Shown here: positions 12,201-64,000 of the stretch, piece after piece
How the letters are laid out: the number at the start of each line of letters is the position of its first letter
How positions within the stretch are numbered: position 1 is the stretch's first letter
Source: Apoderus coryli
Lineage: Eukaryota > Arthropoda > Insecta > Coleoptera > Attelabidae
Length of the DNA stretch: 64,000 nucleotides
Assembly: GCA_911728435.2 (NCBI GenBank)
Contig: OU452213.1
Location: 3,327,834 to 3,391,833 of the forward strand
Reading direction: 5' to 3'
Translations under genes and position numbers: made by a program
Notes under the pieces: model-generated
What the model saw: only the letters and a program-made list of their open reading frames with translations
Databases searched by the model: none
What the model was told of the DNA's origin: nothing

Positions 12201-15200
12201 ATAGATATCCCGTAAAACCTACATGGTTAACTTTGCGGACATACTGTGCCTGTTACTGATTATTTATTATTATTAATAATCACTTCCTTTTTGCGGTACT
12301 TTCTTCAATATTAATTTAATGCGTATCAGGAAAATGTTAGAAATCAATCAAAACCATAGAGAAACTAATAATTAATCTTAATAGTCGTACAAAGGTCCTG
12401 CCTATGTTCTCTGGATCAAGATCTATAAGCGAGAGACAAAAAAATCCTCTACAAAACTTTTAGGCAATGAACAGATGTACAACTCAAAAATGTTTTTAAT
12501 TATACAGGGTAGTTCACAAACGCGCAGCAGACCAGAGTTGATATGCCTAAGTCTAGTAGTTTTTGAAAGACGAGGCATGTTTTTTAAGTAAGTACCGTTT
12601 TGGAATTAAAAAAAGACGTGCAAAGATATCGCAATAATTTTATTTTTACATGAAAGCCTGTACCTTAATCTACTTTTCTACATAATTTCCGTGAATATTC
12701 AGGCACCAGTTTTTGAATACCCTCCTCATAAAATTCTGCTGCCTGACTTGTTAACCACTGTATCACAAATGTTTTGACTTCGTCATCGTCTTGAAGACGC
12801 TGACCACCCAGGTGTTTCTTCAAGTGCAGGAACAAATGGTAGTCGCTGGGCGCCAGATCAGGGCTGTATGGAGGATGATCTAGAGTTTCCCATTTAAAAG
12901 ATTTGATGAGATCTTTGGTCCGATTAGCCACATGTGGACGGGCATTGTCATGCAGCAAAACGATACCCTTACTCAACTTGCCACGTCTTTTGTTCTGGAT
13001 TGCACGACGCAGATTGTTCAATGTCTCACAATAAGACGCTGCATTGATTGTCTCATTACGAGGCAGAAACTCCACTAGCAATACTCCTTTTCTGTCCCAA
13101 AAAACTGTGCACATGATTTTCCGGGCAGAAATTGTTTGCTTAAACTTCACTCTTTTGGGTGATGATGAATGCCGCCATTCCATGGATTGTTGTTTCGATT
13201 CTGGTGTGACGTAGGCCACCCATGTTTCGTCACCAGTAACAATTTGGTCTAAAAAATCTTCACCTTCATTGTGGTACCGCTCAAGTAAACTCAATGCACT
13301 GCCTAAACGTTGGGTTTTGTGCAAATCCGTCAACATTTTTGGAACCCAACGTGAACACAAATGATACAGTGGTTAACAAGTCAGGCGGCAGAATTTTATG
13401 AGGAGGGTATTCAAAAACTGGTGCCACGTTATGACAAGTGCCTCAATATTCACGGAAATTATGTAGAAAAGTAGATTAAGGTACAGGCTTCCATGTATTA
13501 CGATATCTTTGCACGTCTTGTTTTAATTCCAAAACGGTACTTACTTAAAAAACATCTTCGTTAAATTTGTAGGCAAGTACCAATTTTTCGTATAAAATCC
13601 ATTCGAATTCCCTTCTTTTCCCCCTTTCCAGGTAGACCTTTAATTGGCAATCAACGATGTTGGAGTGTTGATCATCAGCTGATAGATGTTTTGGTCAATT
13701 TATTTGAATCACACATGGTATAAAAAAAACTCAAACCAATGCAGCGTCGTCGTGTACGATCTCCCCTTAAATGGCGACGAGGCTTCAAACGTCATAGTCG
13801 CACACGACGCGCCACAGTTTTATTGTTTAAATGCGGCATGTTTTCTCTCACTCTATCGCTGATCTTTTTATAGAATTCATTTGGCCAGATGCCCTGTGTA
13901 CTTGCTTGTAGCATTTGTATACTATAAAACCGCACGTGGCCTTTTTAAGATTAAAATGTTAATGATGGACAATTGGGCTTCATTTTGCTATATAATAATA
14001 ATAATAGTTTGACCGTTACATCTATTTATGTCGTGTCCTATTTGAATTTATGCTTATAATTCGAAAAATATACTGTTTTGAAAAGTTTACTAAACTGATT
14101 ACCTACAAATTACGTTCGTGAAGCTTTTTTCTCAGCCAATCAATTACGCCGATAAAGCATCTTGAATTTTAATAGAATGGCCCTGGTTGATCATCCGATT
14201 AAACGCTGTAGGACTATTTTCTTTGGGTTTTCTTGGAGGAGAAATTGTGCACTTGTTCTATAGGCGAAATAAATTTACCTTGTACTGGAAGAGGCTCGAA
14301 ATGACTTTACATACAACTCTAATTGCAAAAAAAACTTACCACATGGCTTGCACTGAAACTGGTTTAAAAATGTGATGACGTTCACAGACGCTGACACTGA
14401 ACCCTCTGTAATTAAAAAAAAAAAGAAAATGTGTAAGATTTGTGATATTTATTATCGTTAAATTTTTTGTCAGGCTCAAAGGCTCAAAATTGTATTTTTT
14501 TTCATCGTTAAAAATTAAAAGAAAAATCTCATACCCATCGCCATCCAAAGTGATCTTGGTATTGGCCAATACCCTCAATACTAGCCCAACAGTGGTCCTC
14601 TCATTACAATCGATGCCCAACAGACAGGATTCTTCTGCCCGATTGCCCATTCTTGAAACAACAACCAAGTAACGCGTGCGGGAAGGATGGATGCTTTCCA
14701 ATTTTACGGCCTAGAACAAACAGAAATTCGATACAGTTATATGATTTCAGTGCAGCCTCATGGGCTTATTGTGAAAAATCCCCGTATATTATGCCACCCA
14801 ATCCAGCAGCCCTGTACCCTCCACTAACTTGTGAAGTTCAGTTATGTGTTGGGTGTCAATATCTGCTGGCGCAATCAGCGAATGCCCAAAAATAGCGTGT
14901 CTTCTTCGTTGTAGAACTACACACTCACATATTACATGGTAAGCTGTTTCAACTGCCCCATTACACAATCTGCATTGCAGGTCACCATTGTACAGCCCCA
15001 TCTTATTTAGGTGGTCTCTCAGAGCGCAATGCCCAGTAAGGAGTCCCATAGTTATTCGCATCTGACTCCTGCTTAATAATAGCAGTTTTTCAGTGCGTTT
15101 TGTTGCGGCACCAGGTATAAACCTCTTCCCATGCTCCTGCTTGGGAATATGTTCCCAATATCTCTGGTGCTCGCTTTTGGCCCAGCACGTGAGGAGTTCC

Positions 15201-43284: not shown

Positions 43285-44870
43285 AGAACTATCATCATTA
43301 CTTGGACGTTTATAAATCAGAAAAACTAGCCTCGACTTAATGGTTGCAGAAGTGGCAACCCCGAAGAACGAAATCAGTCACGACTCAACAAACCTAAATT
43401 CAATATGAATAAAATACAACCTAAAACTGCTGGAGTACCGTTAGTTATTATTTATTTATTTTTTTATACTAGGTAACATGTTATTTAGCTCATTTCCCAA
43501 ATATGGCATATATTTTTAATCAATATTTAAAAATAAATAACACATATAAGTAGGTAGGTACCTAATAGAAATATTGACACAAATTATCAACAACATTGGA
43601 TAACACTATACCATTATTAGCTGTAAATATTGATAACACACTAAACTAATCCTTTGGAATTAGGTTTAATTTGATTAAAAAAAACCTACAATATCATTAT
43701 TTTTTTATTATTTTATCTGTAGTGGATACTTAGGTATTTTCTTGAACTATAGGTATTGTTTAATTATTTAGGTTTTGACTTTTGCAAATTATGTCCTCAA
43801 AGCTAATACTTACATTTTCATTTATACCTCATTCCATCATAATTCATAAAAAGCTAGGTTTGAGGAGGACGAATCCCTAATTACAGCTCTTTCTACAGTC
43901 AAAGCTTCAAAAGAAAGCCAAACAACCTAGCTATGCTAATAAGTAGTACCTACTTACATGACATAGTGAATTACTCGAACTAGGACTCCTCTGGATAGTC
44001 ACTAGGGCCATCAGTTGGATGCACAACACACATACAAACAAACACAATAAATTATTACACAGTCACGATATTAGTATTTTAATTATCCAGCTTTTGTGTG
44101 TATTTGTATTATTATATTATAATAATATCCACGCATACCCGATTCCGTTTCAACTAAAATCCATATTATGACATTATTGTGGTTGTGACAAAATTTTAAT
44201 TAAAAATATTGTGATAAAATTAAATTTATTTATTTATTATTGAGATGGATAATAATGTCAAATTGTCACACGAACACAAAAACAAAAAGCTTGTAAGGCT
44301 AAAATCTGATCGGTCACAAATTTAGAGTGTGTTGTCAAATTGTGTACAATTTCATGAGATTTTAAATTTTAAATGTACTTTTTTAGATTTTAATTGATTG
44401 AATCACTTAAATAAAAGCACGTTAGTATTTTTATCAACATTGTACCTAAACAGTTTTTGAACATTTCTGCATGTAGAAATAAATATTGTTTCGATTTAAT
44501 TCAAAAATTAAGGTCTCTTTAATAAGCAACAGGTTCTTTGTTAGTTGGATATTATTTTACTGTTTACTGTATCAAAACAAAAATTTTCTTACTGGAAATT
44601 AATGGATATGGCAACGTCGATCGTGAAAACTATTTTGTGACTATGCTCCAGATCTACCGACATCTCCAGTCAATACGTAAATTCAGCCAATAAGAAGGCA
44701 CTATTATTTTAGTCGATTTTGTGTACCCAAAAATTATGCCATCTTTTGGTATGTAGTTGGACGAACGTACGAGTAGTAGTATACTGTAAAAATCCAACAA
44801 ACTGTTTTTACAATGATTTACTTAATTATAATAAACATTTTTAAGGGACGGTTTTCTTAACCGTTATATT
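43285..44870. other. No gene seen
   Basis: AT-rich intergenic DNA between slingshot and SBDS, with AATAAT runs. Nothing coding is supported. Confidence 0.5.
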
Positions 44871-44871
44871 G

Positions 44872-45095
44872 CATTCAGAACGACTGGAATTAACGAGGCA
44901 AGGACTACTGGATCAGCATAGCACTCCCTCGCTTCCTTGATATACCGTTCTTCCTAGTTCTAGTAGGCTGCGGCTCTATTATGACGTTTTATCAACTTAA
45001 CCTAAATATGGTGAAGGCCATTAAAGAAAGAAAAAAAGAAAGTTAACATAAATATTACTTTTAACATTATTTTTTGTTATTAAATATTATCCAAA
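44872..45095 (+). promoter_or_regulatory. SBDS promoter and 5'UTR (copied into TRMT44 intron 3)
   Basis: The 224 bp before the SBDS ATG include TTGCATTCAGAACGACTGGA and end TAAATATTATCCAAA just before ATG. A near copy is at 49735-49955, where the ATG is replaced by ATATTAG. This conservation with a dead copy shows a duplication. Confidence 0.6.
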
Positions 45096-45912
45096 ATGAG
45101 TAAAATATTCACACCTACTAATCAAATCCGCCTGACAAATGTTGCGGTAGTACGCATCAAAAAGGCTGGTAAACGTTTTGAAATCGCATGTTACAGAAAT
45201 AAAGTTGTCTCATGGCGTAATCAAGTGTAAATTTATTACTCTCAAAACACCATTCTCATAATAATTATACCTGTTATTTTACAGTGAAAAGGATATTGAT
45301 GAGGTTCTTCAAACACACACAGTCTTCGCGAATGTATCCAAAGGCCAAGTAGCAAAAAAAGAAGATTTAATAAAAGCTTTTGGTAAAGACAACCAAACAG
45401 AAATATGCAAGGAAATTCTCGCTAAAGGTGAATTACAAGTATCAGATAAGGAACGACAAAGCCAGAATGATCAAATGTTTAAAGATATCGCAACAACCGT
45501 AGCAAACAAATGCCTAAACCCGGAAGTAAAACGACCATATCCAGTAACAATAATTGAAAAAGCGATGAAAGATGCACATTATTCTGTTAAACCCAACCAA
45601 TCGACAAAACAACAAGCTTTAGCAGTTATGAAGCTGTTAAAAGACTCGATACCTATCGAACGAGCTAAACTACGATTGAAAGTTAATTTCAAAGGTAAAG
45701 AATCGAAAAAACTAAAAGAGAAAATCATTAAAATCGCTAGTGTTGAAGTCGAGGAAGAAGATCGTTTGGAAGATGAGATTACGCTGGTATTGTTAGTGGA
45801 ACCTGGTGTTTTTAGAGATATTGATGCGTTGGTTAAAGCAGAGTCTAAAGGTTGTGCTCTTTTAGAAGTTATGTCGTATAAAGAAATGGTTTTGGGTGAT
45901 GAGTTGTTATAA
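45096..45912 (+). CDS. SBDS: Ribosome maturation protein SBDS
   Basis: SBDS works with the GTPase EFL1 to release eIF6 from late cytoplasmic 60S subunits. Two exons: 45096-45226 and 45285-45912, separated by a 58-bp intron (donor GTAAAT, acceptor TTTTACAG). The product is 252 aa, the usual family length. Exon 1 gives [20 protein letters not shown] and [15 protein letters not shown]. Exon 2 gives [40 protein letters not shown] and [20 protein letters not shown]. All three SBDS domains are complete. AATAAA at 45958. It is convergent with MMAB, 510 bp between stops. No damage seen. Confidence 0.97.
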
Positions 45913-48135: not shown

Positions 48136-50827
48136 ATGTTTAAAATACCTTTAGCAACAAGTTCAACCCAACTTCCCATTAATAATTTCTGGAAAATAGT
48201 TAGAATATACCATGATAGGCCTCACTTAATCAATAGAAAACTAACAGCAATATCACAAGCACTTTTATGCGAAGTAGTAGTACATGCCGAAGATACTAAA
48301 AATAACTTAATAGACCTTCTATCGAAGACTTCTATACTCTATGAAGTACGAAAGCTTCAAAGTGTCTCGAAACACGAAATAAGTTGTGCTTTTGTTAGAA
48401 GTTTTATAGAATGCTACGATAAACAATGTGAAGTTATAGAAGTTAATGAAAGTGATGTATTTGAACATAGACTTGATGGTGTTTTCATCTCAGTTCGGAT
48501 ATTGTTGCCAAGAATCAATAAATGTAAACCGGCTGTTGAACTAGTTTTAATTGAGAAAGGGAAGAATCGAGTTAGTTTTATTGCAGTGCAAGAGAAAGAT
48601 GAGGTATTGTTTACTGTTCCTTTTGTTTACGAGATTGAATTGACCACGAATTTAAATTTGGCGATTAATGTGGACTCGTTTGAGGTAAGTAGCCTATTTT
48701 TTAGTTCAAATTATATATATTACTGGACCTATTTTTGTCAGAACGCTGATACGCCCTATGCGGGTTGGCTTGGGGAGAAACTGTTCCCAAAACTGCTGAA
48801 CTGGAGCGAAAATACTGAACATGAAGACAGTTCTAATAGAATAGCAGTACACTCGCTGTCCCTGGTTGCAATAGATGATTATTGTATGACATACAAAAGA
48901 TTGAAGGAGAGTTATGGCGAGCATTTACTAAAGGTAAAGGTTTTATCAGTTCTTAGTACTTACATATTATGATTCTATAATATTTTTCGTTAGGAATGGC
49001 CGACAAAGACCAATACCGACCCTCAAAAGTATGTGTTCGAAGATATGGCGATCGCCAGTTATTTAATTTGTTTATGGAGTCGATATGATAATAAGGAAGC
49101 GATTAATTTTGTTGATTGTGGTTGCGGAAATGGTTTGTTAGTGTATTTATTGAACCAAGAGGGTTACCGGGGGTGTGGTATTGATATTAGAGCGAGAAAC
49201 GTGTGGAGTATCTATCCAGAAAGTACTCAGTTAGAGGTAAGGGACAATTCTGCATCATTATTCTTTCTAGCCAATGCTTGACATAGTCTACTGTAAAAGA
49301 GCAAAAAAATTATCTCTCAAACCTTTGCGGACTGTTTACTGTGCTTTACCTCGTATGTTTATAAATCACCAAATCAGCGATTTGAAGGAAGTCACCAACG
49401 CTTTGCATATTTTTAATATTACATGTAAGTTTCTTCCGAAGTTTCTAACGAATTTACTGATTCTTATAATAACCAAATTGCTTTAATAAGGTGAAGGCCG
49501 GTCTTGGCATTGTGTTTATAATTTTATAGACAACAATCATGGTCTTTTTGACAATTGACATTCCCTTACCTAACTGTCAATTATTTTTGTAAAAGGACCG
49601 TGAAGTGAGGGGAGGAAAGCATATTTTCTCAGCTGTGTGATAATGCGTTTTCATTCGCCGCAAATTAATTTTCAGATAACTGAGAATTTTAGCCTCAAAA
49701 TATTTCGTTGTCCATAAGATTATATGAGTTTTATTGCATTCAGAACGACTGGAATTAACGAGGCAAGGACTACTGGATCAGCATAGCACTACCTCGCTCC
49801 CTTGATACACCGTTCTTTCTATATTGACAATTGACGTTTTATCAACTTAACCTAAATATGGTGAAGGCCATTAAAGAAAGAAACAAAGAAAGTTAACCTA
49901 AATATTACTTTTAACATTATTTTTTGTTATTAAATATTATCAAAAATATTAGTAATAATAATAATCGACAATTCTGCATGATTATTCTTTGTAGCCAATG
50001 CTTGACATAGTCTACTGTAAAAGAGCAAATCTATTTTATTCCAGGTATCAACGATAACACCAACTTCCCTGTTCCCGAAAGCTACCTGGATAATCGGCAA
50101 TCATTCCGATGAACTAACACCGTGGATACCAGTAATGGCATTGAAAAGTAGCGAGAAAACCAACTTTTTCGTCCTACCATGTTGTCCATACGACTTTTCT
50201 GGACAAAAATACATCCGAACAAACACAGGTCAGAGCACATACAGTGACTACATAACCTATATTCAAGGTGTATGCGACAAATGTGGGTTTGACACGAAAA
50301 TCGATAAACTTCGCATACCATCAACTAAAAGAACCTGTTTAATTGGACTTAGAGATCCCAATAAGTTGATTAATAAAGAAAATATTGAAACATTTATCGA
50401 AGATCGTGTTAAGAACAACAAATTTTCACCGAGAAGTGCTGTAGAACTTGTCCGAAACTGTACACAATTAGACAGAGACCTTATAACACGTTTAATTCGC
50501 ACTTGCGTTGATAAAATCCTGGGAAATAATCGTACAAACATGATCGACAACTTTTGGAACAAAGGCGGAGCCCTAACTCTAGCGGAACTCGCGAAATTAT
50601 TGGAAAACGACGATTTGAAGCAGCTAAAAAGTGAATGTGGTGGATTGCAGACTCTGTTGCGTAATCATCGGTATATTTTCGAGATTTGCAACGGTAAAGT
50701 TGGACTGAGATTGCCCGTGAAGCTAGCTGAAACTGATAGGTATCGAGGTAAGGTTTGTTGGTTCCATATGAACCATCCAAATGGGTGTTTGTATCATAGG
50801 GATGTTTGTGGTTATAGTCATGAATAA
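48136..50827 (+). CDS. TRMT44: tRNA (uracil-O2-)-methyltransferase TRMT44
   Basis: TRMT44 (yeast Trm44) 2'-O-methylates U44 of serine tRNAs. Four exons: 48136-48684, 48742-48933, 48994-49236 and 50045-50827; all GT-AG, 588 aa. The S-adenosylmethionine site is in exon 3 (INFVDCGCGNGLLVYLLNQE, then GCGIDIRARNVWSIYPES). Exon 4 has NFFVLPCCPYDFSGQKYIRT and ends with a CCCH-type zinc finger (CWFHMNHPNGC...CGYSH). AATAAA at 50823-50828 overlaps the stop codon. Intron 1 (57 nt) is a multiple of three and has no stop, so retention would add 19 residues. Intron 3 (808 bp) carries the chimeric duplication described separately. The gene looks intact. Confidence 0.95.
49243..50029 (+). repeat. Chimeric insertion in TRMT44 intron 3
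   Basis: The intron sequence GACAATTCTGCATCATTATT to AAAAGAGCAAA (49243-49305) is repeated at 49967-50029. Between the copies, 49306-49731 matches odorant-receptor exon 1 and intron 1 (51299-51767), and 49735-49955 matches the SBDS promoter/5'UTR (44872-45091). All pieces lie in the plus orientation. The receptor copy has small deletions and is not a working exon. Confidence 0.88.
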
Positions 50828-51167: not shown

Positions 51168-52437
51168 ATGTATTTAGTTAATATTCAAACAATGAAGATT
51201 ATTAATAAACAATATTTCTTCAACATAAATTGCATTCTGATCATGTTTACCTTGACTGGTTTGCACCCAAAATTGCGAAACAATGTATTTCAAAAAGTTC
51301 TCTATTTCTCAAACCTTTGCGGATTGTTTACTGTGCTTTACCTCGTATGTTTATTGTTTATTTATCACCAAATCACCGATTTGAAGGAAGTTACCAACGC
51401 TTTGGAGACCATATTTTTAATATTGCATGTAAGTTTCTAACGAATTTACTGATTCTTATAATAACCAAATGGCTCTAATAAGGCGAAGGCCGGTCATTCA
51501 AACTAGAACCAAAGCCATATTCCACGGAAAATTGTGATAAGCAAATGAGTGGTCTTGGCATTGTGTTTATAATTTTATAAAGACAACGGTCTTGTTAACT
51601 TTGACAATTGACAATCCCGTACTGAACTGTCAATTATTTTTGTAAAAGGACCGTGAAGTGAGGAGGAGAAAAGCATATTTTCTCAGCGTTTTCATTCACC
51701 GCAAATTAATTTTCAGATAACTGAGAATTTTAGCCTCAAAATATTTCGTGGTCCATAAGATTGTTCACGTCTCTTTTACTACAAAAATGTAGCTGAGTTG
51801 TAGAAGAAAAATTGTGTAGTTCCTGATAAACACAGTGACCTCACGGGCGAGGTAGACTTAGATGTATTTTGTGTTGCATAACCATCTGTAATACTTTTTC
51901 TAGAAAATTTGTGATAACTAATTAAGGTGTTTTGTTTTATTATTTTAGGGTCAGCTCGTCCTCAACTTCCTATATTTCAACAAAAAACGCATCTCAGATC
52001 TTTTAGACCAACAGAAACAATTTTGGAAAACAGATGATCAGATAGAAATCGCGACTAATTCGTTGGAATACAAACAGCTCCTAAAAAACCTTAAACACCT
52101 TTTCATAATCTATCTCTTACATGGAATTGTACCTTTAATATTCTTTCTATTCCGTCCATTATTAACTAGAGATAAAGTGTTGACATTCAACTGTTACATT
52201 CCAGACAGAATTCCATTTAACTTGATGATTTTAATTGAGAACTACGTCTTTCTGGAGTATTTTCTATATGTGGTGGCTTTCGACGTTTTCGTCTGTACCA
52301 TGTTTATTCTTGTTCAAGTACAGTTCAAAATGTTAGGAGACTATTTTCAAAATATTAACTATGCAGTCTCCGCCACAGAAGAGGAAACTACGATGGTTTG
52401 GAAGCAGATTGAAAAAGGAGTTGAATATCATATCTTT
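51168..52437 (+). pseudogene. Odorant receptor (7tm_6), 5' half, cut by Helentron
   Basis: Insect odorant receptors are seven-helix ligand-gated channel subunits that work with Orco in sensory neurons. Exon 1 is 51168-51428 (FTLTGLHPKLRNNVFQKVLY, LVCLLFIYHQITDLKEVTNA). The donor GTAAGT is at 51429. Exon 2 starts at 51949 (GQLVLNFLYFNKKRISDLLD), includes the CYIPDRIPFNLMILIENYVF and VVAFDVFVCTMFILVQVQFK helices, and breaks off after GVEYHIF at 52437, where the Helentron begins and supplies a stop. All splice sites are intact. The remaining exons resume at 61964. Start at 51168 is the first in-frame ATG; 51192 is an alternative. Confidence 0.9.
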
Positions 52438-53034
52438 TAACATTGGAAATGTTTATGTTCGTATGTGGCAGTCAAGTTACGAGTTTTCGTTCAAGGTCAA
52501 AAGACAAGGTGTCGCACAGTAGACCAAATAAAGCAATCGCGTAAATCGTGATGTATTGGGCCAACATGCGACCGCAGAGAAACTAGAACCAGGCACTCGT
52601 AAATTCAGTGTTGCCAAACGTACCAAAATGTGGTAGATGAAAGGGCTTAAGTGAAACAGTCGTAAAATTCCAAAATTATTATTCTAGATATTAATATCTA
52701 GATTTTTCTTAATTTACGAATTTGGATTGTATTATTAATTTTAATGGAAATTATGGCCTGCTTCTGTAGTTTCAATTTTTTTTTAAATTGATATGTTGTT
52801 AGAAGTTAAAAACTCTTTGCGTTATGCGTGTAATGCGTATTTTGTAGAGGGTGGTTTTAAAATGCCCATTTTAAATTAAATTTTCTTAAAATCGCCTTAT
52901 TTCTTTTAAAGGATTTTTATAAGCCTAAGAAACCCAACTATTTATAAAGTGTACGGTGTTCGTTTCCGCTACATGTCATATAAATGTATGTGGCAACGCT
53001 GCGCTGTAGTCGAGACTCGAGTATTTTAGGCGTT

Positions 53035-53040
53035 TATAAA
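53035..53040 (+). promoter_or_regulatory. TATA box candidate of the Helentron Rep gene
   Basis: GTTTATAAATTGAGG lies 127 bp before the Rep start codon, in a slightly GC-richer stretch. Confidence 0.4.
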
Positions 53041-53166
53041 TTGAGGCGTTCGCGGCATACTGAAAGTATTTCCATCCTTTGATTGTTTGATTGTTAATAA
53101 AACGAATGTGTTTATATTGTTAAGAGTTGATTTAAAGTTTGGATTCAGCAGGCAACAACAATAATT

Positions 53167-56100
53167 ATGAATTCTAAAAGTTCAAAAAATAGTGAAAAGT
53201 GTAAGCGATATCGAGAGCGTAAACGTTTACGCGAGGTTGCGGATGGACATGGTTGTAATGGGTTAAGCGAGAGAACGCCGTTAACAAAGAGTGAACGAAA
53301 TAGGCGGTACCGTGAGCGTGTAAAGATTCGAAAACTTGAAAATTCTGGTATATTTCCAGAGAACAGTGACAGTGACATTATTTTTGAACGTGCACGTGAT
53401 AATAATGGCAGTGATGAGGTAATACAGGTAAATAATGACAATGAAATGGTAACAACAGAGGTCTCTTCCTCGTTCGATGTATGTATTGATTTTTGGTCCG
53501 GTCGTAAAGACATGGTGAGGCAACCAGGCAGACGATTTAATATTGAACAGAACTTTAAAGAGTATATGGATAACAAATTTTTTTCGGATAAATTGGACGA
53601 TTATTGTCGCGTGTGTGATCGGATTTGGTGGACAAGTAGATTATCTCACGTTCGAATTGACACTGATTTATATACTTTCGTTAATTCCCTAAATCATTAT
53701 GACATGCAAGAGCCGTTCATGGTGTGTTCTAATTGTTGTACATTTTTGCGGCGTAAGCATATTCCTTCATTGGCAACATTTAATGGGTACTGTTATCCCA
53801 AGATTCCTAAAGACTTGCCCGATTTATGTCCGTTATCTGAGCGTCTAATTTCGCCTCGCATACCTTTTATGCAAATTCGTCATATTAGATATTTTGCTGG
53901 TTCTCGACGTTTAATTGGTCAAATTGTAAATGTGCCCGTGGATGTTAATAACATGGTTATGGCTCTACCGCGGCGTTTAGACGATGATTTTACATTTAAT
54001 GTGTGCCTCAAACGAAAATTACTTCATAAAAGTTCTTATATGGCGGGTTGTATTTCGAAAACAAATATAAAACTATGGCTCAAAGAGTTAGTGAAAACGC
54101 CATTATATAGAAAACACAAAATTGTGATACATGATTCGTTTTTCCACACCAACTCTTCTGACGACGAAGAGGATGATGGTACTTTGCGTTACACCCACCT
54201 CCTTGCAAACAGCTATCAGAATATCGATATCAATATTCGCCACACCATTGAACAGGTTCCTAAATGTAACGAAAGACGAATGACCTCAGAAGAAATCTTA
54301 TCTAAGATGCAGGAAACTTTGTTTTGGGGAGAGGAGATGATACTAGATATGGCTCCAGGACAACATACTCAACCATTTGCCTTATCATTCGATGCGGATG
54401 CTGAAGAATTATCCTTTCCTATGATTTATTTCGGTCAACCACGAGAGTTCAAGGTGCGCGCTACTGCTTATTCGATGGCTACAAGTGAAATACGACGACG
54501 TGATCGACGCGGAGTCAGGTCGAATCATATTTTGTATATGGCCGCAAAGATAATGAGGTATCGAGTTATAGATAGTCTAAATGTTATGTTTCGAGCTAGT
54601 ACTTCTAACGTTCATAATATTACTAGAAGTGACATCGAAAGTCGACAGTTCATTAAAGAAACCTTGGAACGGAATGAATCTTTTTTGCGCCATATTCCTA
54701 ATTCTGTTCAGTATTGGCATACTCGTAAACAAGACTTATTTGCTATGATGAGACAATTAGGCAAACCGACGGTGTTTCTTACCTTAAGCGCATCGGAAAC
54801 TTATTGGTTTCCATTATTAAGATATATTTATAAATTTCAAAACAACTTACCTGCTGAACAAGATATTCCGGACGAGATATTTGATTGCATGAATGCAACA
54901 ACTAGAGCTGAGTTGGTTAATAGTGATCCAGTTATCTGTTGCTTGTATTTCGATAAGTTGGTTGATACAATAATGAATGCTTTAAAACGAACAACTGGGC
55001 CATTCGGAAAGTATCGTGTTATAGATTTTTTTAGACGCGTCGAATTTCAGCATCGAGGTAGCCCTCACTGCCACATGTTACTATGGTTAGAAAATGCACC
55101 ATCTGATACAGAGAGTCGATTGATTGAAGGTATAGATGTACCCGAGGTAGTTCAATTGTTGGATTTTTTAAGTACAGTTGATCAATCATTATTACTTGGT
55201 GACAGACAGTTACAGACTCATCGTCATACGCACACGTGTTATAAAAAGAATGCAACAAAATGCAGATTTGGTGCCCCATTTTGGCCGATGAATGAAACTA
55301 GAATTTTAATACCGGTACCTCCTGCAGATCGAAACGAATCGTTAGTTCAACGTTACAAAAGTTTGCACGAAAATTTAGAAAATAATCATTACACTGATGT
55401 TCGTCAGTTTCTGACAATGAACTTAATCGAGACATTGGATGAATATTTACTTATTATAAGACATGGCCTACACCGCCCAATGGTGTTTTTAAAGCGTGAT
55501 ATCGATGATATTTGGACTAGCCCATTTAATCCTGCAATATCTTCTGTATTACAATCTAACATGGATATTCAATTCATAATAGATGAGTATTCGTGCGCGG
55601 CTTATGTAGCAGATTACGTTAATAAATCTGAACGTGGATTTAGTTCATTGCATCGTGAATTGGTAAAGTTGAGAGATGAGTATCCTGATATGGATTACGA
55701 TGCATGTTTAAAACAATTGGGAAAACGCGTGTTAAGCAATGTCGAAATGTGTACACAAGAAGCTGCTTGGTTTTTACTACGTTTACCGATGTCGGAGGCC
55801 TCGAGACAAGTTGTGTTTTTACCAACTCAACATCCAGCAGAAAGATTTCTTGCCAAAAAACGGAAACTACAAATGGAAAAAGAAAATTTATCGGCGGATT
55901 CAACTGATATTTGGTATAGTAATATAATTCAACATTATGAGAAAAGACCTTCCGAATTAAACAACGTGTGTTTAGCAGATTTCGTTGCCTGGTATGATCG
56001 AAAGCGCACTTTGCAAAAAAAACAGGTGGTTAATGAACAACAGCAGCGCTTGGAAAATGAAAGTGAGAATGATAGTGATAATGTAGATCGTGATGATATT

Positions 56101-58842
56101 AAATGTTTACAATATAGGAAACGAACTAAAGCAAAGGTTTTACGATGGAAAACATATAAATTTAACGATGATCGCATGAATTATATACGAGAAGTAGTAA
56201 CTCTATTTTGGCCTTTTCGAAGCGAGGAATTAGACTTACTTGATCGAGATGAGTACTTGCGTGTTTATGAAATACATGCCGATACACTTCTGGCTAAAAG
56301 AAAAGAGTACGAAAGCGGATTGTCTATCGAGAATGTGGTGCGTATTATTAGCGAAACAGAACATGAAGAGGGTGAAAATAATAACAATAATCCACTTGGC
56401 CCTGCGCTACGGAATGTTGAAGTGCCGTATTTACAACAACCGCCGGATAAGCTGAATGGAAGTGAACACAAGGATTTTGATGCCATACAACGTACTAGCA
56501 CAGTTCGACCAGTGGAAAACATATTATCACATGCAGAGTTTTGTTCCCTATTGCGATCTTTAAATGCTGGACAACTAAAATTTGTATTAGAGTTAATTCA
56601 TCGTCTGACTAATGCTAACACCTCGCCATTGCAAGTGTTTTTTACTGGCCCTGCAGGATCGGGTAAAAGTTATGTGCTAAAAGTATTAATGGAAATTGCT
56701 AATAGATTTACCTGCCGCAATAATATGAGTAAATGTGCTTTTATCGCCTGTGCAACTACTGGTAAAGCAGCGGTAAATATTGATGGCACGACTGTTCACA
56801 CAGCATTTAATATCGGTATTAACACGAAACGACGATTACCGTTAAAAAGTGATGTCTTACAAACAATGAAATGTGACTTCCTTGGAGTTAAAACGGTTAT
56901 TGTAGATGAAGTGAGTATGATGAGTTCCGATATGCTAATTCTAGTTGGAGATCGGTTACGTTCGATTGGCGCCGATCCGACTCAGCACTTTGGAGGTATG
57001 AATATAATCTTTTGTGGCGATTTGCGTCAATTGCCGCCCGTTAATGCGAGAGCTGTTTACGTTCGACCTCCAAACATGTTGCAAGATAATATGTTGTGGC
57101 AAAATTTAAATTATTATCAATTGACGGAAGTAATGAGACAATCAGATATTCAGTTTTCCTCCATACTAACTAAAATCGGTAACGGTGACGTACTTAATGA
57201 TATTGAGCGCTCCTTGATTGAAGGGCGATTCTTTACCTCTGAGGAATTGAAACACATGGATGTACGGAGTGCTATACGATTATTTCATAGAAACGTAGAT
57301 GTAGATCAATACAATTATGATGTTATGAACGATGCTAATGTTCTTCTTTCATTAGCTAAAGACGAAGTGCGAGGTTATGTGAATGTGCAACAATTGAAAT
57401 CAACGCATGACAAACTAAGAAAAATGGATGTGGCTAGCACTGCCAATATGCCTTTGAAACTATTATTAGTTATAGAGAGTCCGTACATAGTAACGCAAAA
57501 TCTAGATAAAACAGACCGATTAATTAATGGATCATTTGGCTACTTAAAATACGTGGAGCTGGATGAAAATGGCGAAATCTTACGTTTGTGGATCCAATTT
57601 TCAGATCGTAATGCAGGTAAAACGTTGCGGTTAAAATATGCAGCACACGCGCATGCACTTGGCCTATCCTCAGAGTGGACCCCACTTTTGCGAAGGGAAG
57701 GAATTATTGACGTAAAATCAAAAATCATTAAAGTTCGACGAAAACAATTTCCCATTGTACCGGCCCATGCTATGAGTATTCACAAATCACAGGGAGGAAC
57801 ATATGATCAAGTAGTTTATGAATATTCCAAGTCCCATGATATTTCACTGGTGTATGTAGCGATGTCTCGTGCTAAAACAATCGAAGGCTTATTTTTAACA
57901 AATAACAAAAATGATCACAAATTCTATCATTGTAGCAAGAATAAAGACCGCGAGGTTCTACGAACTGAATTTAAACGATTGAAAAAAAATAGATTAGTAA
58001 CAATTGTCGACAAATTTACAGATTTTTTTTCTAATCCCACGTATCCAACAATTGCATATTTCAACGTGCAAAGTTTGAACGCGCATATGCTTGATGTTTT
58101 ACATGATCCAGTATTACCAAAAGCCACATTACTTAGCATGTCGGAAACTTGGATGCAAGATAATATACCCCCAATTGATGTTGCCGGTTATCGTTGTATA
58201 GCACGTAAAAATAATGGAAAGAATAAAGCTGGAGGAGTTGCTATTTATGAATCCTTGACTTCTGGATTGGAAACTACACATAAATTATCTTACGATACTA
58301 CAAATGTTTCTTATGGTGATGTCTGCTGTGCTCGAATAGAATATAGGTGCAGAAACCAGAAAATAAAACATTTTTACCTTATAACAATTTACGCTAAACC
58401 AGGTGTAACGAAAAATCAAGTAATGCAGCTCATGGACTTTGCTTTGATGCGATTCAGCAAGTATACATTGATGTTTGCTATTAATCATTTAAACAGTTTG
58501 TATAATAGTCCTTTACTTATATGCGGTGATTTTAATTATAATGTAAATTGTCCAGAGTTAACAACATATCTGCAGGATCGCTACTCTGTTAATTTGGCTA
58601 CTAAAAGTTTAATAACAAGTCGAAACGGCACGTCAATAGATGGAATATTTTATAGAAATGAACAATTTGAAATTATTCCATACGTATTGTATTTTAGTAC
58701 ACATGTACCGTTGATAGTGCGATTGGCAGATAACCCCACCCTTCAAACAGGCCAATCCATTGCAGAATTATCGACGCGTCGATCTGAACATGCAGTGCCT
58801 CAGTGTTCCCAATTCGGGTGTAATTACACCGTTTTGGGATAA
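53167..58842 (+). CDS. Helentron Rep-helicase with C-terminal endonuclease
   Basis: A single open frame of 1891 aa. The N-terminus is basic (RYRERKRLREV repeats) and is followed by a Cys-rich finger (CRVCDRIWW, CSNCCTFLRRKH). The Helitron-like N and Rep region has FLTLSASETYW, the HUH motif (H634-C635-H636 in HRGSPHCHMLLW) and two tyrosines Y813 and Y817 with K820 (AYVADYVNK). The PIF1-like helicase follows: Walker A GPAGSGKS at 1161-1168, DEVSM at 1247, and a C-terminal HAMSIHKSQGGTYD box near 1540. The last 260 residues are an endonuclease/exonuclease/phosphatase domain (FNVQSL 1632, SETW 1659, GDFN 1787). The usual final SDH motif reads STH at 1844-1846. Rep plus helicase plus this endonuclease defines a Helentron. 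The frame is uninterrupted, so the protein may be functional. Confidence 0.96.
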   Translation: MNSKSSKNSEKCKRYRERKRLREVADGHGCNGLSERTPLTKSERNRRYRERVKIRKLENSGIFPENSDSDIIFERARDNNGSDEVIQVNNDNEMVTTEVSSSFDVCIDFWSGRKDMVRQPGRRFNIEQNFKEYMDNKFFSDKLDDYCRVCDRIWWTSRLSHVRIDTDLYTFVNSLNHYDMQEPFMVCSNCCTFLRRKHIPSLATFNGYCYPKIPKDLPDLCPLSERLISPRIPFMQIRHIRYFAGSRRLIGQIVNVPVDVNNMVMALPRRLDDDFTFNVCLKRKLLHKSSYMAGCISKTNIKLWLKELVKTPLYRKHKIVIHDSFFHTNSSDDEEDDGTLRYTHLLANSYQNIDINIRHTIEQVPKCNERRMTSEEILSKMQETLFWGEEMILDMAPGQHTQPFALSFDADAEELSFPMIYFGQPREFKVRATAYSMATSEIRRRDRRGVRSNHILYMAAKIMRYRVIDSLNVMFRASTSNVHNITRSDIESRQFIKETLERNESFLRHIPNSVQYWHTRKQDLFAMMRQLGKPTVFLTLSASETYWFPLLRYIYKFQNNLPAEQDIPDEIFDCMNATTRAELVNSDPVICCLYFDKLVDTIMNALKRTTGPFGKYRVIDFFRRVEFQHRGSPHCHMLLWLENAPSDTESRLIEGIDVPEVVQLLDFLSTVDQSLLLGDRQLQTHRHTHTCYKKNATKCRFGAPFWPMNETRILIPVPPADRNESLVQRYKSLHENLENNHYTDVRQFLTMNLIETLDEYLLIIRHGLHRPMVFLKRDIDDIWTSPFNPAISSVLQSNMDIQFIIDEYSCAAYVADYVNKSERGFSSLHRELVKLRDEYPDMDYDACLKQLGKRVLSNVEMCTQEAAWFLLRLPMSEASRQVVFLPTQHPAERFLAKKRKLQMEKENLSADSTDIWYSNIIQHYEKRPSELNNVCLADFVAWYDRKRTLQKKQVVNEQQQRLENESENDSDNVDRDDIKCLQYRKRTKAKVLRWKTYKFNDDRMNYIREVVTLFWPFRSEELDLLDRDEYLRVYEIHADTLLAKRKEYESGLSIENVVRIISETEHEEGENNNNNPLGPALRNVEVPYLQQPPDKLNGSEHKDFDAIQRTSTVRPVENILSHAEFCSLLRSLNAGQLKFVLELIHRLTNANTSPLQVFFTGPAGSGKSYVLKVLMEIANRFTCRNNMSKCAFIACATTGKAAVNIDGTTVHTAFNIGINTKRRLPLKSDVLQTMKCDFLGVKTVIVDEVSMMSSDMLILVGDRLRSIGADPTQHFGGMNIIFCGDLRQLPPVNARAVYVRPPNMLQDNMLWQNLNYYQLTEVMRQSDIQFSSILTKIGNGDVLNDIERSLIEGRFFTSEELKHMDVRSAIRLFHRNVDVDQYNYDVMNDANVLLSLAKDEVRGYVNVQQLKSTHDKLRKMDVASTANMPLKLLLVIESPYIVTQNLDKTDRLINGSFGYLKYVELDENGEILRLWIQFSDRNAGKTLRLKYAAHAHALGLSSEWTPLLRREGIIDVKSKIIKVRRKQFPIVPAHAMSIHKSQGGTYDQVVYEYSKSHDISLVYVAMSRAKTIEGLFLTNNKNDHKFYHCSKNKDREVLRTEFKRLKKNRLVTIVDKFTDFFSNPTYPTIAYFNVQSLNAHMLDVLHDPVLPKATLLSMSETWMQDNIPPIDVAGYRCIARKNNGKNKAGGVAIYESLTSGLETTHKLSYDTTNVSYGDVCCARIEYRCRNQKIKHFYLITIYAKPGVTKNQVMQLMDFALMRFSKYTLMFAINHLNSLYNSPLLICGDFNYNVNCPELTTYLQDRYSVNLATKSLITSRNGTSIDGIFYRNEQFEIIPYVLYFSTHVPLIVRLADNPTLQTGQSIAELSTRRSEHAVPQCSQFGCNYTVLG

Positions 58843-59442
58843 TTTGAGGTCACTGTGTGTAATTTTCTAACAACCAATTATTTGGTATAATTTGGCACAT
58901 TAGTGATTTCAATTGAATTGTCAAATTGTCTTTTGCTTCTTTTTTTTGGGATATGGCATGACATGACCGCCAGTTTGCGTGCTGCCTGTAACCACTCTTC
59001 TTCTAGTATGGCTTCCTACCTGCTACTGGCTATACTATAGAACTATAGAGGCAAAATGCAAAAGCAAACAGCCACCTACCACCACCACCTATAACACAGG
59101 TGTATTAGCTGTGCCTATCACATAAACATCATTGCATTCAATTGTCAAAAGCATTACAGGGTTTTTTTTTTTTTGTTTTAGTTCCTTTTGCATAAATATT
59201 TTTAGGTAGGCATTGGCAACAATGTTGTGTGTAAAGTGGTGTATTTTGATACTCATTCAGGGATATTTTCGGTCTCAAGTGTTGGGAACACTGCAGTACC
59301 TGCACCACCCCGCACTCAGTTTCAGTTGTGCCTTCGACGGATGCGGAGCAGTCGAGCAGTGCTGTAGTGAGTCGGACACAGACGACGTCGATGTTAACTT
59401 GTCATGCGCAGGAATAAACCGTGATTTTAGTGCCGACTAAGA
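58843..59442. other. Helentron inter-gene region with upstream frame
   Basis: A 75-codon frame at 59213-59440 (MATMLCVKWCILILIQGYFR) ends two bases before the next gene's ATG. It may be an upstream open frame or chance. No other coding content is seen. Confidence 0.4.
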
Positions 59443-61549
59443 ATGTTTTCGGTTAAAGATAAAGACTCTGCTTTAAAGCGCAACTTTTCGCAAAATGAAC
59501 TGGAAAATTACAGCCAGCAGTCTACGTCCCAACGTAAAAAGCTAAAAACACGACAGACATATTCCATGCCGTCAGCAGAGGATGATTCTGAAATTCGTGA
59601 TAGTTCTATTGTGTTGTGTTCACCTGTACTTTCACCATCGCTAGTGCCGAATTACCAGGAGGCAGCATCGTCATCATCCGATGAGGCAGAACACGATGAC
59701 ATTGGCAAAAGTCCTTACATGATTAAGCCGTCATTAGGTAAGAAAAATACACTGCATATATACACCCTTTCATCTTATTTTTGCAGGCAGTAGGCCATAA
59801 CTTCATTATTGATAACAATTAAAGTATTGTTGTTAATAACGAAATCATGGGCTACTGGCCTGAAAAATAACATGACACGGTGTGTATATGTATAGGTATA
59901 TTGTAATTTATTTAAATTAAAGTTTATTTTTATAGATATTTTTATGTCACTTTATATAAACTGCCCTTTAATTAATGATGACATTGCTTTTTTATGTTTG
60001 AATTATGGAGGGTAGAGGGGAGGAGGAAAATCTCCGTACATTAAAAGTGGTCCATAAAAAGGTGAAAATAACGAGGGCGCTAGCGTCGCGAGAGGGTATA
60101 AATTTTAAATTTCGCGCCTCCTTTTATGTCCAATTTACTTCATTGGCCTCTTTTATACATAACCTGGCTTGTTTTTTATGTTTAAATTTTGATTATAAAA
60201 ACAATAACAGTTTTTTTTGAATTAATGCTAAAGCAAAAAGGTGAATTTTCTGTTATGAAAATATTTTAAAAGCACTGTGCTGCACTCTTATTAAAATGTT
60301 AAATAGTCGTTTCAATAATTTCAGGTTATGGTACACACATATACAGTTTATTTGTAGCTAGCGGCTAAGTTCATCTTATACCCTCTGGCTACACCAGCGC
60401 CGCCTATTTGATCCTTTTTGGCGATTATTTTTTAGCTTTAATCCCATAAATTACTTGCAAAAACATTGTCAACGAATTTTCTCAATATTGGGGTCTCTGA
60501 TGTGATGACGCTGGTGGTTACAATAGTTTTGGCCTGATTATCTAAAAATAAAGTCAATTTATTAATTTTAAAAGAATTACTAGTGGCAGATTAATTATTT
60601 ATATAATAATATAACTGTTTACCTACTTCTTCCTTCTTCTTTTGTTACAGGCACATTGTTCGATACATCTGAAATGGAGAAGTTTTTTGAACGTTACAAG
60701 AGGTCCTTACCAGATTGTCATCCAATTCGCACTGCTGCTGAACTTCAAGATATGAATTACAAGTTTCGGAAAAGTGCCATCAATAAGAACCATTTTTGTC
60801 AGTTTCAATATAAGAAGCCTCCGTTGTTATTCATTGTAACTAACACATTTGGTGTTTTTATATCTACATCCGAAGAATACTTTTCTAGATCGACCATTCA
60901 CGATATTAGAGCCTTACAGCCGCGACATCGCGTTTCATTATTAATTCCCACTATTCAGCATTGGTGGAATGAAGAAAGCAAGGCGATGATGTTAGCTTTC
61001 TTGGAGCGTTTTATCAATGATATGAAATGTTTGGCTGCAAGTCAACAGTTTCGTTCGGCTATAGATCGCTTTGGCATTGTAGATATCAAAGAATCGTTAA
61101 AAGCATTACGAACTAAACTGATCACAGCAACCAAAAATATAAATGGTCAAACCACTCCTGGTGTCTTTGGTCTACGTATAGAAAACACTCTAAATGTTCC
61201 CAGTCAGATACATGTCAGTTTAGCAGAGATTAATGGTAGAACGATCCAACCCTCAAAATGGAAAAAGTTATTAGTACCATCATACATGCACGCTGCTTTA
61301 ATGATTTCGGTAAAAGGGTTTAAAATCACCAAAAGTGGTTTTAGTTTAGACTTTAATGTAGAGTCGTTAGCATATATGAAGGTCTCCCAAATTGATGGAG
61401 CACCAAGACGGTCTTTCGGATTCGACCAATTACAAGAATTTAAAAAGAGTCCAGGAGTTAACTCATCTTCAAGTGATGATGACGATAATGTAAATGTAGG
61501 TGCATCTACTAGTAGTGGCTCTGCTAAGTTTGATACATCCATGTGGTAA
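59443..61549 (+). CDS. Second Helentron gene, function unknown
   Basis: Two exons, 59443-59737 and 60651-61549 (donor GTAAGA, acceptor CTTTTGTTACAG), join in phase to 397 aa. The N-terminal exon is Ser/Lys-rich and probably disordered, with a basic RKKLKTRQ cluster (nuclear signal-like) and an acidic SSSSDEAEHDD patch. The second exon has a structured core (FRKSAINKNHFCQFQYKKPP, LLIPTIQHWWNEESKAMMLA, LLVPSYMHAALMISVKGFKI). Its C-terminal tail is acidic (SSSSDDDDNVN) and ends FDTSMW. AATAAA at 61604. I do not recognise the family. A beta-rich core with an acidic tail and its place beside a Rep gene suggest a single-strand-DNA-binding or accessory replication protein, but that is inference. Confidence 0.75.
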
Positions 61550-61634
61550 TATTATTATGTTTTATTATATCTTAAGAACACTTAAAGTTATTTTTTGTTA
61601 CAAAATAAAGAATATTGCTACATTTATTTTTAAA

Positions 61635-61890
61635 TTAAGATATGTATTACTTACTCTTTTGAAATTTACTATACAAAGAAATAATATAATATGTTGCTTG
61701 TTTCTTGCAATTATTATTACTTATTATTATTATTGGAAATACTATTTTTGTTCATGGTAGGGATTAAGTTTTTATTTTTAAATTAAAATATGTATTACTT
61801 ACTCTTTTGATGTTTACTATATTATAATAAATAATATATGTTGATTGTTTCTTGCAAGTATTATTGCTTATTATTGGAAATACTATTTTA
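61635..61890. repeat. ~126-bp tandem duplication near Helentron 3' end
   Basis: AAATTAAGATATGTATTACT to TTGGAAATACTATTTTTGTT (61631-61755) is repeated with small changes at 61775-61895. It lies close to the 3' inverted repeat. Confidence 0.8.
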
Positions 61891-61963
61891 TTTTAAGTTT
61901 AACTGCAAATAAATGTTAATAATATTTTATATGTGGTGTTATCATTTCCAATGTCTCTGATGG

Positions 61964-63285
61964 TTGCAAGAATTGCGAAATCTGTAAGTTTTTGTTAAAG
62001 TTAGTCCTTGCTTATATTGGGAAACAATGTATAAACTTATAATACGACTGAAAACTCAATATTATTTAATTTTAGTTACACAAAAGAACTAAGTTCTTTG
62101 CTATCGCCGGCTTTGCTGCTTTATTTCATCATAATTGTGCTATCAATGTGTATTGAAATGTATATTATATCCTCAAGGTAAGCGAATAAAGTCTAGCACT
62201 TACAATAAATGTGAGATCTTACAGCAGCGGAGCCCTATCACTAATAATAATCAAGAGACAGCTTTATTTTAATTACATATAGTTACTTTATAGGGCTGAA
62301 TTGGGCGAAGTCATAAAATGTGTCAGTTATATTGTAGGTATGAGTTTTGAAATAGTGGGTTTTTATTGTTTTCCTGCACAGCTTTTAATAGATGAAGTAA
62401 GTGTATTTATCAGGTGTAATATTGCTAAAACCAGTTTGAATTAAATGAGGAACAACTTTTACATGTACCTACTTTGGAATTTGCAGGCAGACTATGTACG
62501 TATGAAGATGTTTTCGAGCAATTGGCATGAATCATCTAATCTGGCTTTAAGGAAATCAGTATTAATGATTATCCAAAAAAGTCAACGTCCAGTAATTATA
62601 TCGGCTGGCAAAATCTTTGACATCAATCTGGAGTTTTGCATGAATGTAAGACATCAATTATTATAAACCAGAAGTTTGAAGCTACATACCTAACCTAACA
62701 CTTTTAAATGAAGAACACTTTTATGCTTTCTCACGTAAATCACAAAACAAACATAGTGTGATTATCTCTGTTTGCCTCAAAAACAATTGTAACATTTTTC
62801 TATACCTCAGCAAAACTTGGACAAAAATACGTAAAATTGTCGTGGGCTATAATTCATTTGGTAAAAAAATGTGCGATTAAGTGAGGTGACTGAAAATGGC
62901 TGCTAGCGTTTTAGAAAACCGAGTGGGAGGTTATTATCTCATATCAATTAAGCTGAGCTGATTAGCAAAAAAAAATCTCTAATCTAATGAATGTCAGTAT
63001 TGTCAAAAGTCAAAATTAATTGTGGTTATGTTGTAGAAATTGTTAAAAATTATTTATTATAAACTTTTATCAATCTATGGCTTATTTATTAATCAGAAAG
63101 CTTAACAAATATTAGAAAATCTATAATTTGTAAGATTTTTCTCTTCGGTATAAATGTTTAAACTTGTTTTAAAGATATTCGTCAGACGAGAGCCTCAGAA
63201 GTTAAAATTGATTTGTTTTTTTTTTCAGACATTCAAAACGATATTCTCCTACTACATGAGTTTAAGAACGCTGGGGAAAAAATAG
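61964..63285 (+). pseudogene. Odorant receptor, 3' half after the Helentron
   Basis: Rest of exon 2 is 61964-61983 (LQELRN, donor GTAAGT). Exon 3 is 62076-62177 (YTKELSSLLSPALLLYFIII). Exon 4 is 62294-62396 (AELGEVIKCVSYIVGMSFEI). Exon 5 is 62487-62645 (FSSNWHESSNLALRKSVLMI, RPVIISAGKIFDINLEF). Exon 6 is 63229-63285 (TFKTIFSYYMSLRTLGKK, stop). Phases agree with the 5' half. Without the Helentron the joined frame is 396 aa, normal for the family, with no stop or damaged splice site. AATAAA at 63335. The gene was therefore intact when the element arrived. Confidence 0.9.
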
Positions 63286-63564: not shown

Positions 63565-63954
63565 TTATATGATTCCAATTTTATTAGCCACATCTAACGC
63601 ATCGTAGTCCCGCGCTAATCTTACGTAAGCCTTCTTCTTCCCATCAGGCCGGATTAGCGTATTAACTTTTGATGCATTGATATCGTACAACTTTTTAACT
63701 GCAGCTTTAATATGATGCTTATTGGATCTGGTATGAACTAAAAACACTAAAGTATTATTATCTTCAATTTTCTTCATTGCTGCTTCAGTCGTTAAAGGGA
63801 ATTTGATGATATTATACGCATCCATACGGGACCTGGTTGGGACACTCTTCCTGGGATATTTAGGGTTACGTGGGGGCCGTAATGTTTTCGGCCGGTGGAA
63901 GTGCACCGAAGTACGGATTTTACGCACGTGTGTACCGTGTGGACCTTTAATAAC
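63565..63954 (-). CDS. RpL23A: 60S ribosomal protein L23a (uL23), last exon
   Basis: Binds 23S-like domain III at the 60S exit tunnel. The exon starts after a TTTTTTCCAG acceptor at 63955-63964 and reads [40 protein letters not shown] and [20 protein letters not shown], and ends [27 protein letters not shown], the family's conserved C-terminus. Polyadenylation AATAAA (minus strand) is at 63514-63519. The N-terminal exon(s) lie beyond the right edge. Its 3' end is convergent with the receptor, 279 bp from that stop. Confidence 0.96.
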
Positions 63955-64000
63955 CTGGAAAAAACAATTTCTTAAGTATATTTTGTTAAACATATTTAAC

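Follow-up and report, generated by a model that had tools for sequence, protein, structure and literature searches.

Disruption of genes by transposons is well known. In one described case, the Evelknievel retroelement lies inside exon 13 of Arabidopsis CMT1 and disrupts the gene in certain ecotypes (PMC6238269). Among rolling-circle elements of the endonuclease-encoding Helentron class, the mite Helentron is described as combining a Rep-PIF1 helicase with the endonuclease in a single frame of 1881 aa that lacks introns, as having an RPA-like second gene, and as carrying palindromic subterminal repeats, the 3' one lying 38-60 bp from the end (PMC4067079). The same source describes an extra palindrome between the 3' subterminal repeat (subTIR) and the end, flanking Ts, a serine in Rep motif 2 that is diagnostic of Helentrons, and insertion in T tracts that leaves the target unmodified except for a variable number of Ts. 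For the ancestral insect odorant receptor (OR), intron phases of 2-0-0-0 are given, with a phase-2 intron before short C-terminal exons (PMC6080948).

Here, the window (the whole stretch of DNA that was analysed, 64,000 nt) contained an OR gene split by a Helentron. As in CMT1, a transposon sits inside a coding exon, although the element class and the host differ. A limited search of titles and abstract openings returned no report of a Helentron-split OR, and no word beginning with 'transpos' occurred in passages of two beetle papers, one of them PMC6720082, from whose scheme the exon letters A to E were taken. The best overall explanation, and a very probable one, is that a Helentron in sense orientation entered a run of five Ts in exon A2, that its 3' end lies at the right-hand T tract, and that the stretch translated as LQELRN, which the initial annotation had assigned to the receptor, is the tail of the element. 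The features of the locus are as follows.

49311..49721, plus strand: decayed partial copy of the receptor (3' part of exon A1 and start of intron 1), with identity at 362 of 386 ungapped positions
51168..51428, plus strand: receptor exon A1, with ATG, 261 nt, phase 0 at its end, donor GTAAGT; Pfam 7tm_6 match on the joined protein
51949..52437, plus strand: receptor exon A2, left part, last residues ...GVEYHIF
52438..52440, plus strand: in-frame TAA at the left junction, which truncates the product to 250 aa
52439..61988, plus strand: Helentron core, 9550 bp, from left TTTT (52435-52438) to right TTTTT (61989-61993); the element's share of the Ts is ambiguous
52439..52453, plus strand: 5' subterminal palindrome AACATT-GGA-AATGTT, of which 12 bp (52440-52451) recur inverted at 61943-61954
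53167..58842, plus strand: Helentron ORF1, 1891 aa, with Rep, PIF1 helicase and likely AP endonuclease; motifs VEFQHRGSPHCH, YVADYVNK, GPAGSGKS and GDFN
59443..59737, plus strand: Helentron ORF2 exon 1, of a 397-aa gene with a single intron whose splice sites are sequence-based predictions
60651..61549, plus strand: Helentron ORF2 exon 2, with four database relatives and no known domain
61943..61954, plus strand: 3' subterminal repeat CATTTCCAATGT
61964..61983, plus strand: 'LQELRN' tail, reassigned to the Helentron 3' end; hairpin GCAA-GAA-TTGC (61966-61976), donor-like GTAAGT at 61984
61989..61993, plus strand: right T tract, probable target-site remnant, in common with the left Ts
61994..61999, plus strand: remaining right-hand part of receptor exon A2 (GTTAAA), followed by donor GTTAGT at 62000
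62076..62177, plus strand: receptor exon B
62294..62396, plus strand: receptor exon C
62487..62645, plus strand: receptor exon D
63229..63285, plus strand: receptor exon E, stop TAG

The receptor gene spans 51168-63285 in six exons and belongs to Pfam family 7tm_6. When 52437 was joined to 61964, as the initial annotation had proposed, a stop-free protein of 396 aa with GT/AG borders was obtained that matched 7tm_6 at E = 2.5e-29, which bears out the recognition of a six-exon receptor. Rejoined at the T tract, the protein scored 113.2 bits over profile positions 4-312 of 313, a match across the length of the family. With this near-full-length match and five introns it resembles other PF02949 receptors, from which it differs in being interrupted here. 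Its intron phases are 0-2-2-0-0. As in the insect OR pattern set out in PMC6080948, a phase-2 intron stands ahead of the short C-terminal exons; however, the next intron is in phase 2, whereas the ancestral one is in phase 0.

Apart from the insertion, no lesion was found in the receptor exons, as the initial annotation had stated, and its claim that the receptor is disrupted also held: a TAA follows directly after VEYHIF, so that 250 of about 392 residues are kept and the last 142 are lost. Splicing directly from exon A1 to exon B would break the reading frame. Given the early TAA and this out-of-frame skip, the interrupted allele is probably a null. The gene would have been intact before the insertion, and the first bases of the Helentron would themselves complete the TAA that cuts the receptor to 250 aa.

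The element likewise looks like an intact Helentron, as first described. ORF1 is open over all its 1891 aa and matched the PIF1 helicase (1.8e-28) and Helitron_like_N (1.1e-24) families, both above the Pfam cut-off, giving a Rep/PIF1 helicase protein. Its Rep motif 2 reads VEFQHRGSPHCH at residue 625, with an S between G and P. The C-terminal part, searched alone, matched Exo_endo_phos over 2-208 of 225 profile positions at E 8.7e-05, with 22.8 bits against a Pfam cut-off of 24.5, so the endonuclease match is sub-threshold; no endonuclease was among the three PDB matches of this part up to E 10. ORF1 also contains SETW, GDFN and STH, which we take to be endonuclease motifs. The likeness to the mite Helentron, as described in PMC4067079, extends from the combination of Rep-PIF1 helicase and candidate endonuclease in one intronless frame of similar length to the presence of a second gene, palindromic inverted subTIRs, a probable T-tract target and the diagnostic serine. 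No relatives of the Helentron were found in the viral contigs or genome contigs searched.

At the left end, the palindrome AACATTGGAAATGTT lies directly 3' of four Ts; 11 of 200 shuffles of this stretch folded equally well. The inverted subTIRs of the element, palindromic in the left arm, share 12 bp, where Helentrons have 11 bp or more, and so long a match occurred in 16 of 19936 pairs of windows (40 and 60 bases) drawn at random. Ts flank the Helentron on both sides. Shortly 5' of its 3' end, two neighbouring copies of ~120-125 bp, 84% alike, occupy 61623-61889.

The insertion appears to be recent. In an alignment counted by eye, 7 gaps and 24 substitutions separate the receptor from the decayed fragment (49311-49721). 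Decay bounds were calculated on the assumption of an indel-to-substitution ratio of 0.1 to 0.29 and of four fifths of indels causing frameshifts. For the lesion-free receptor, they place neutral divergence at no more than 0.9-1.8% (95%, assumption-dependent), which would leave some room for the opposite reading, namely that the insertion is old and fixed and that chance or a low mutation rate at the locus accounts for the intact appearance of the receptor. Against this stands the fact that both element frames are open too, which lowers the bound to about 0.16-0.34% (approximate and assumption-dependent), and the adjoining fragment at 49311 shows stops besides its 7 gaps at a divergence of 6%. 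An old insertion is accordingly improbable. The intact frames and the decay bounds thus favour the young insertion that was originally proposed, to the extent that the model behind the bounds holds, and the bounds permit the insertion to be polymorphic, as the initial annotation had suggested it might be, the window itself representing a single haplotype. An intact second copy of the receptor nearby, named in the initial annotation as evidence that would count against its reading, was not found: tblastn and blastn of the 64,000-nt window gave only the 49311-49721 fragment, with its stops and frameshifts.

The position of the right boundary was examined by receptor spacing. Joins were listed from the left flank plus 0-9 Ts to each right-flank GT that precedes the next exon, keeping those open to the receptor stop. 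Ten joins were open besides that of the initial annotation. The claim that excision restores the frame is correct for the join proposed. An in-phase junction, with ten others open throughout, is weak evidence for it. Pfam scores were obtained for five of the 11 open versions. The highest, 113.2 bits, went to five Ts with the donor at 62000 (T5 join; HIF-LLN-YTKEL, 392 aa). Lower scores came from the joins with two Ts (108.7 bits), with eight Ts (105.7) and with five Ts but an earlier GT (103.8), and from the originally proposed join (102.8).

Protein searches returned no receptor homologue among 3163 candidates at E 0.001, nor any for residues 236-396 among 347 candidates at E 10. Spacing was therefore assessed with Pfam and PDB only. 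Eight PDB sequences matched the originally proposed receptor at E up to 1, with OR10 the best; they amount to two lineages in effect, OR10 and seven Orco-type chains. The T5 join scored higher in all eight, rising from 40.6 to 50.1 bits for OR10, from 32.9 to 39.3 for Apis Orco, and from 24.9-26.1 to 29.9-32.1 for six others, which were taken as Orcos, one of them being labelled only as an odorant receptor. A profile search also matched OR28, MhOR5, ApisOR5 and OR67d; the spacing comparison covered OR10 and the Orco-type chains. In three displayed alignments of the eight matches (OR10 and two Orcos), the 396-aa protein had four residues too many, either at the junction or at most some ten residues away. 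MAFFT also placed a four-residue gap within about ten residues of the junction, and the gap was gone from two displayed PDB alignments of the T5 join.

The boundaries first proposed (element 52438-61963, LQELRN within exon A2, a 396-aa receptor) have in their favour an open join that yields six exons and a donor, GTAAGT, resembling the other donors of the gene, whereas the T5 join uses GTTAGT, less close to the consensus than the GTAAG found at each of the other four donors. Nevertheless, that reading carries the surplus residues, scores about 10 bits lower in Pfam and fares worse in 8/8 PDB matches. It would also deprive the Helentron of a 3' palindrome, ending it just 9 bp beyond the 3' subTIR, while the distance from the subTIR to an element end at the start of the T tract is 34 bp, slightly less than the 38-60 bp given for the mite Helentron in PMC4067079. 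These boundaries are thus quite unlikely to be right. The stretch from 61964 on occupies the place where the 3'-terminal segment of a Helentron is expected, so neither the end at 61963 nor LQELRN as receptor sequence was retained, and the 396-aa product with its TTT+TTG empty site gave way to the T-tract join. The hairpin GCAA-GAA-TTGC in this segment was not significant by itself (29 of 200 shuffles folded equally well).

In the 64,000-nt window, no second copy of either Helentron end was found; the 14-base left end had 21 matches with at most three mismatches, against 17.6 expected by chance. Since neither a second element copy nor a receptor homologue was found, the placement of the 3' end draws on structure and family spacing, and the Helentron most likely ends at the T tract, about 25 bases beyond the boundary first drawn. 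An assembly artefact, in which an element from elsewhere or a join of haplotypes was placed in the exon, is scarcely credible, because one gene runs on across both flanks with its order, strand and frame preserved, and the insertion lies at a T tract, which is where elements of this class are expected.

Under the T-tract reading, an autonomous-looking Helentron would have entered the five-T run near the 3' end of exon A2. The empty site would most likely read CATATC-TTTTT-GTTAAA|GTTAGT, and the empty gene would encode 392 aa through ATC TTT TTG TTA AA|GTTAGT followed by exon B. The expected empty allele would be CATATC-TTTTT-GTTAAAGTTAGT, whereas the boundaries first proposed would predict one with TTGCAAGAATTGCGAAATCT. 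The 3' terminus of the element, consisting of the hairpin after the 3' subterminal repeat and then GTAAG, is by chance open in frame, and this open tail with its donor-like GTAAGT would explain how the original boundary arose. An in-phase rejoin does not fix the boundary of a transposon, because the element tail can be open in frame and, as here, its donor-like site can be nearer the consensus than the inferred donor of the receptor. If the empty allele segregates, the locus would provide a natural knockout of one OR, linking receptor to odour without genome editing.

Gene disruption itself is ordinary, and the more novel part of the locus is the second gene of the Helentron, which is not recognisably RPA. 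Of 6949 candidates in a protein search with ORF2, four (P0001-P0004) were relatives at E up to 1. Three come from sources with the code 'lgn', and the remaining one, from the longhorn beetle Rhamnusium bicolor, also contains anoctamin sequence. Identities of the four to ORF2 exon 2 were 91, 68, 36 and 40%. Neither RPA nor any other family was matched by ORF2 in Pfam or PHROGs, and its five PDB matches, at E 1.5-2, were at chance level. The second gene of the mite Helentron is described in PMC4067079 as RPA-like, whereas ORF2 lacks RPA similarity and has a predicted intron. An RPA-like second gene is an accessory trait of the mite element and does not define Helentrons; ORF2 does not share it. 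Structure predictions were poor, with a mean pLDDT of 36.8 for ORF2 exon 2 and 33.4 for the relative P0003. Tentatively, the element could represent an undescribed Helentron lineage, active and still making chemoreceptor null alleles, whose second gene encodes a conserved accessory protein with no sequence relationship to RPA, which might be a novel factor for single-strand binding or for targeting; this is possible, if doubtful. As an intact-looking Helentron whose second gene is predicted to be spliced, the element would also suit studies of how such elements move. Within the ORF2 intron, 59755-59890 forms an inverted repeat with 65-nt arms, a 6-nt spacer and 78% complementarity.

Elsewhere in the window, tRNA and Rfam scans returned nothing. 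A 63-bp direct repeat (49243-49305 and 49967-50029, 97%) brackets 661 bp, within which lie the decayed receptor fragment and a 220-bp piece resembling 44863-45097. The segment 49243-50029 resembles either repair filler or a composite insertion, and apparently lies inside an intron of what we take to be a TRMT44-like gene. Satellite-like arrays with units of ~243 and ~151 bp occur at 768-2282 and 8034-9701, respectively. Opposite-strand copies, 93% identical, were found at 5580-6323 and 12567-13308, with frames that are presumably mariner-like transposases. Just downstream of the receptor, on the minus strand at 63600-64000, lies a frame whose resemblance is, we assume, to ribosomal protein L23A.
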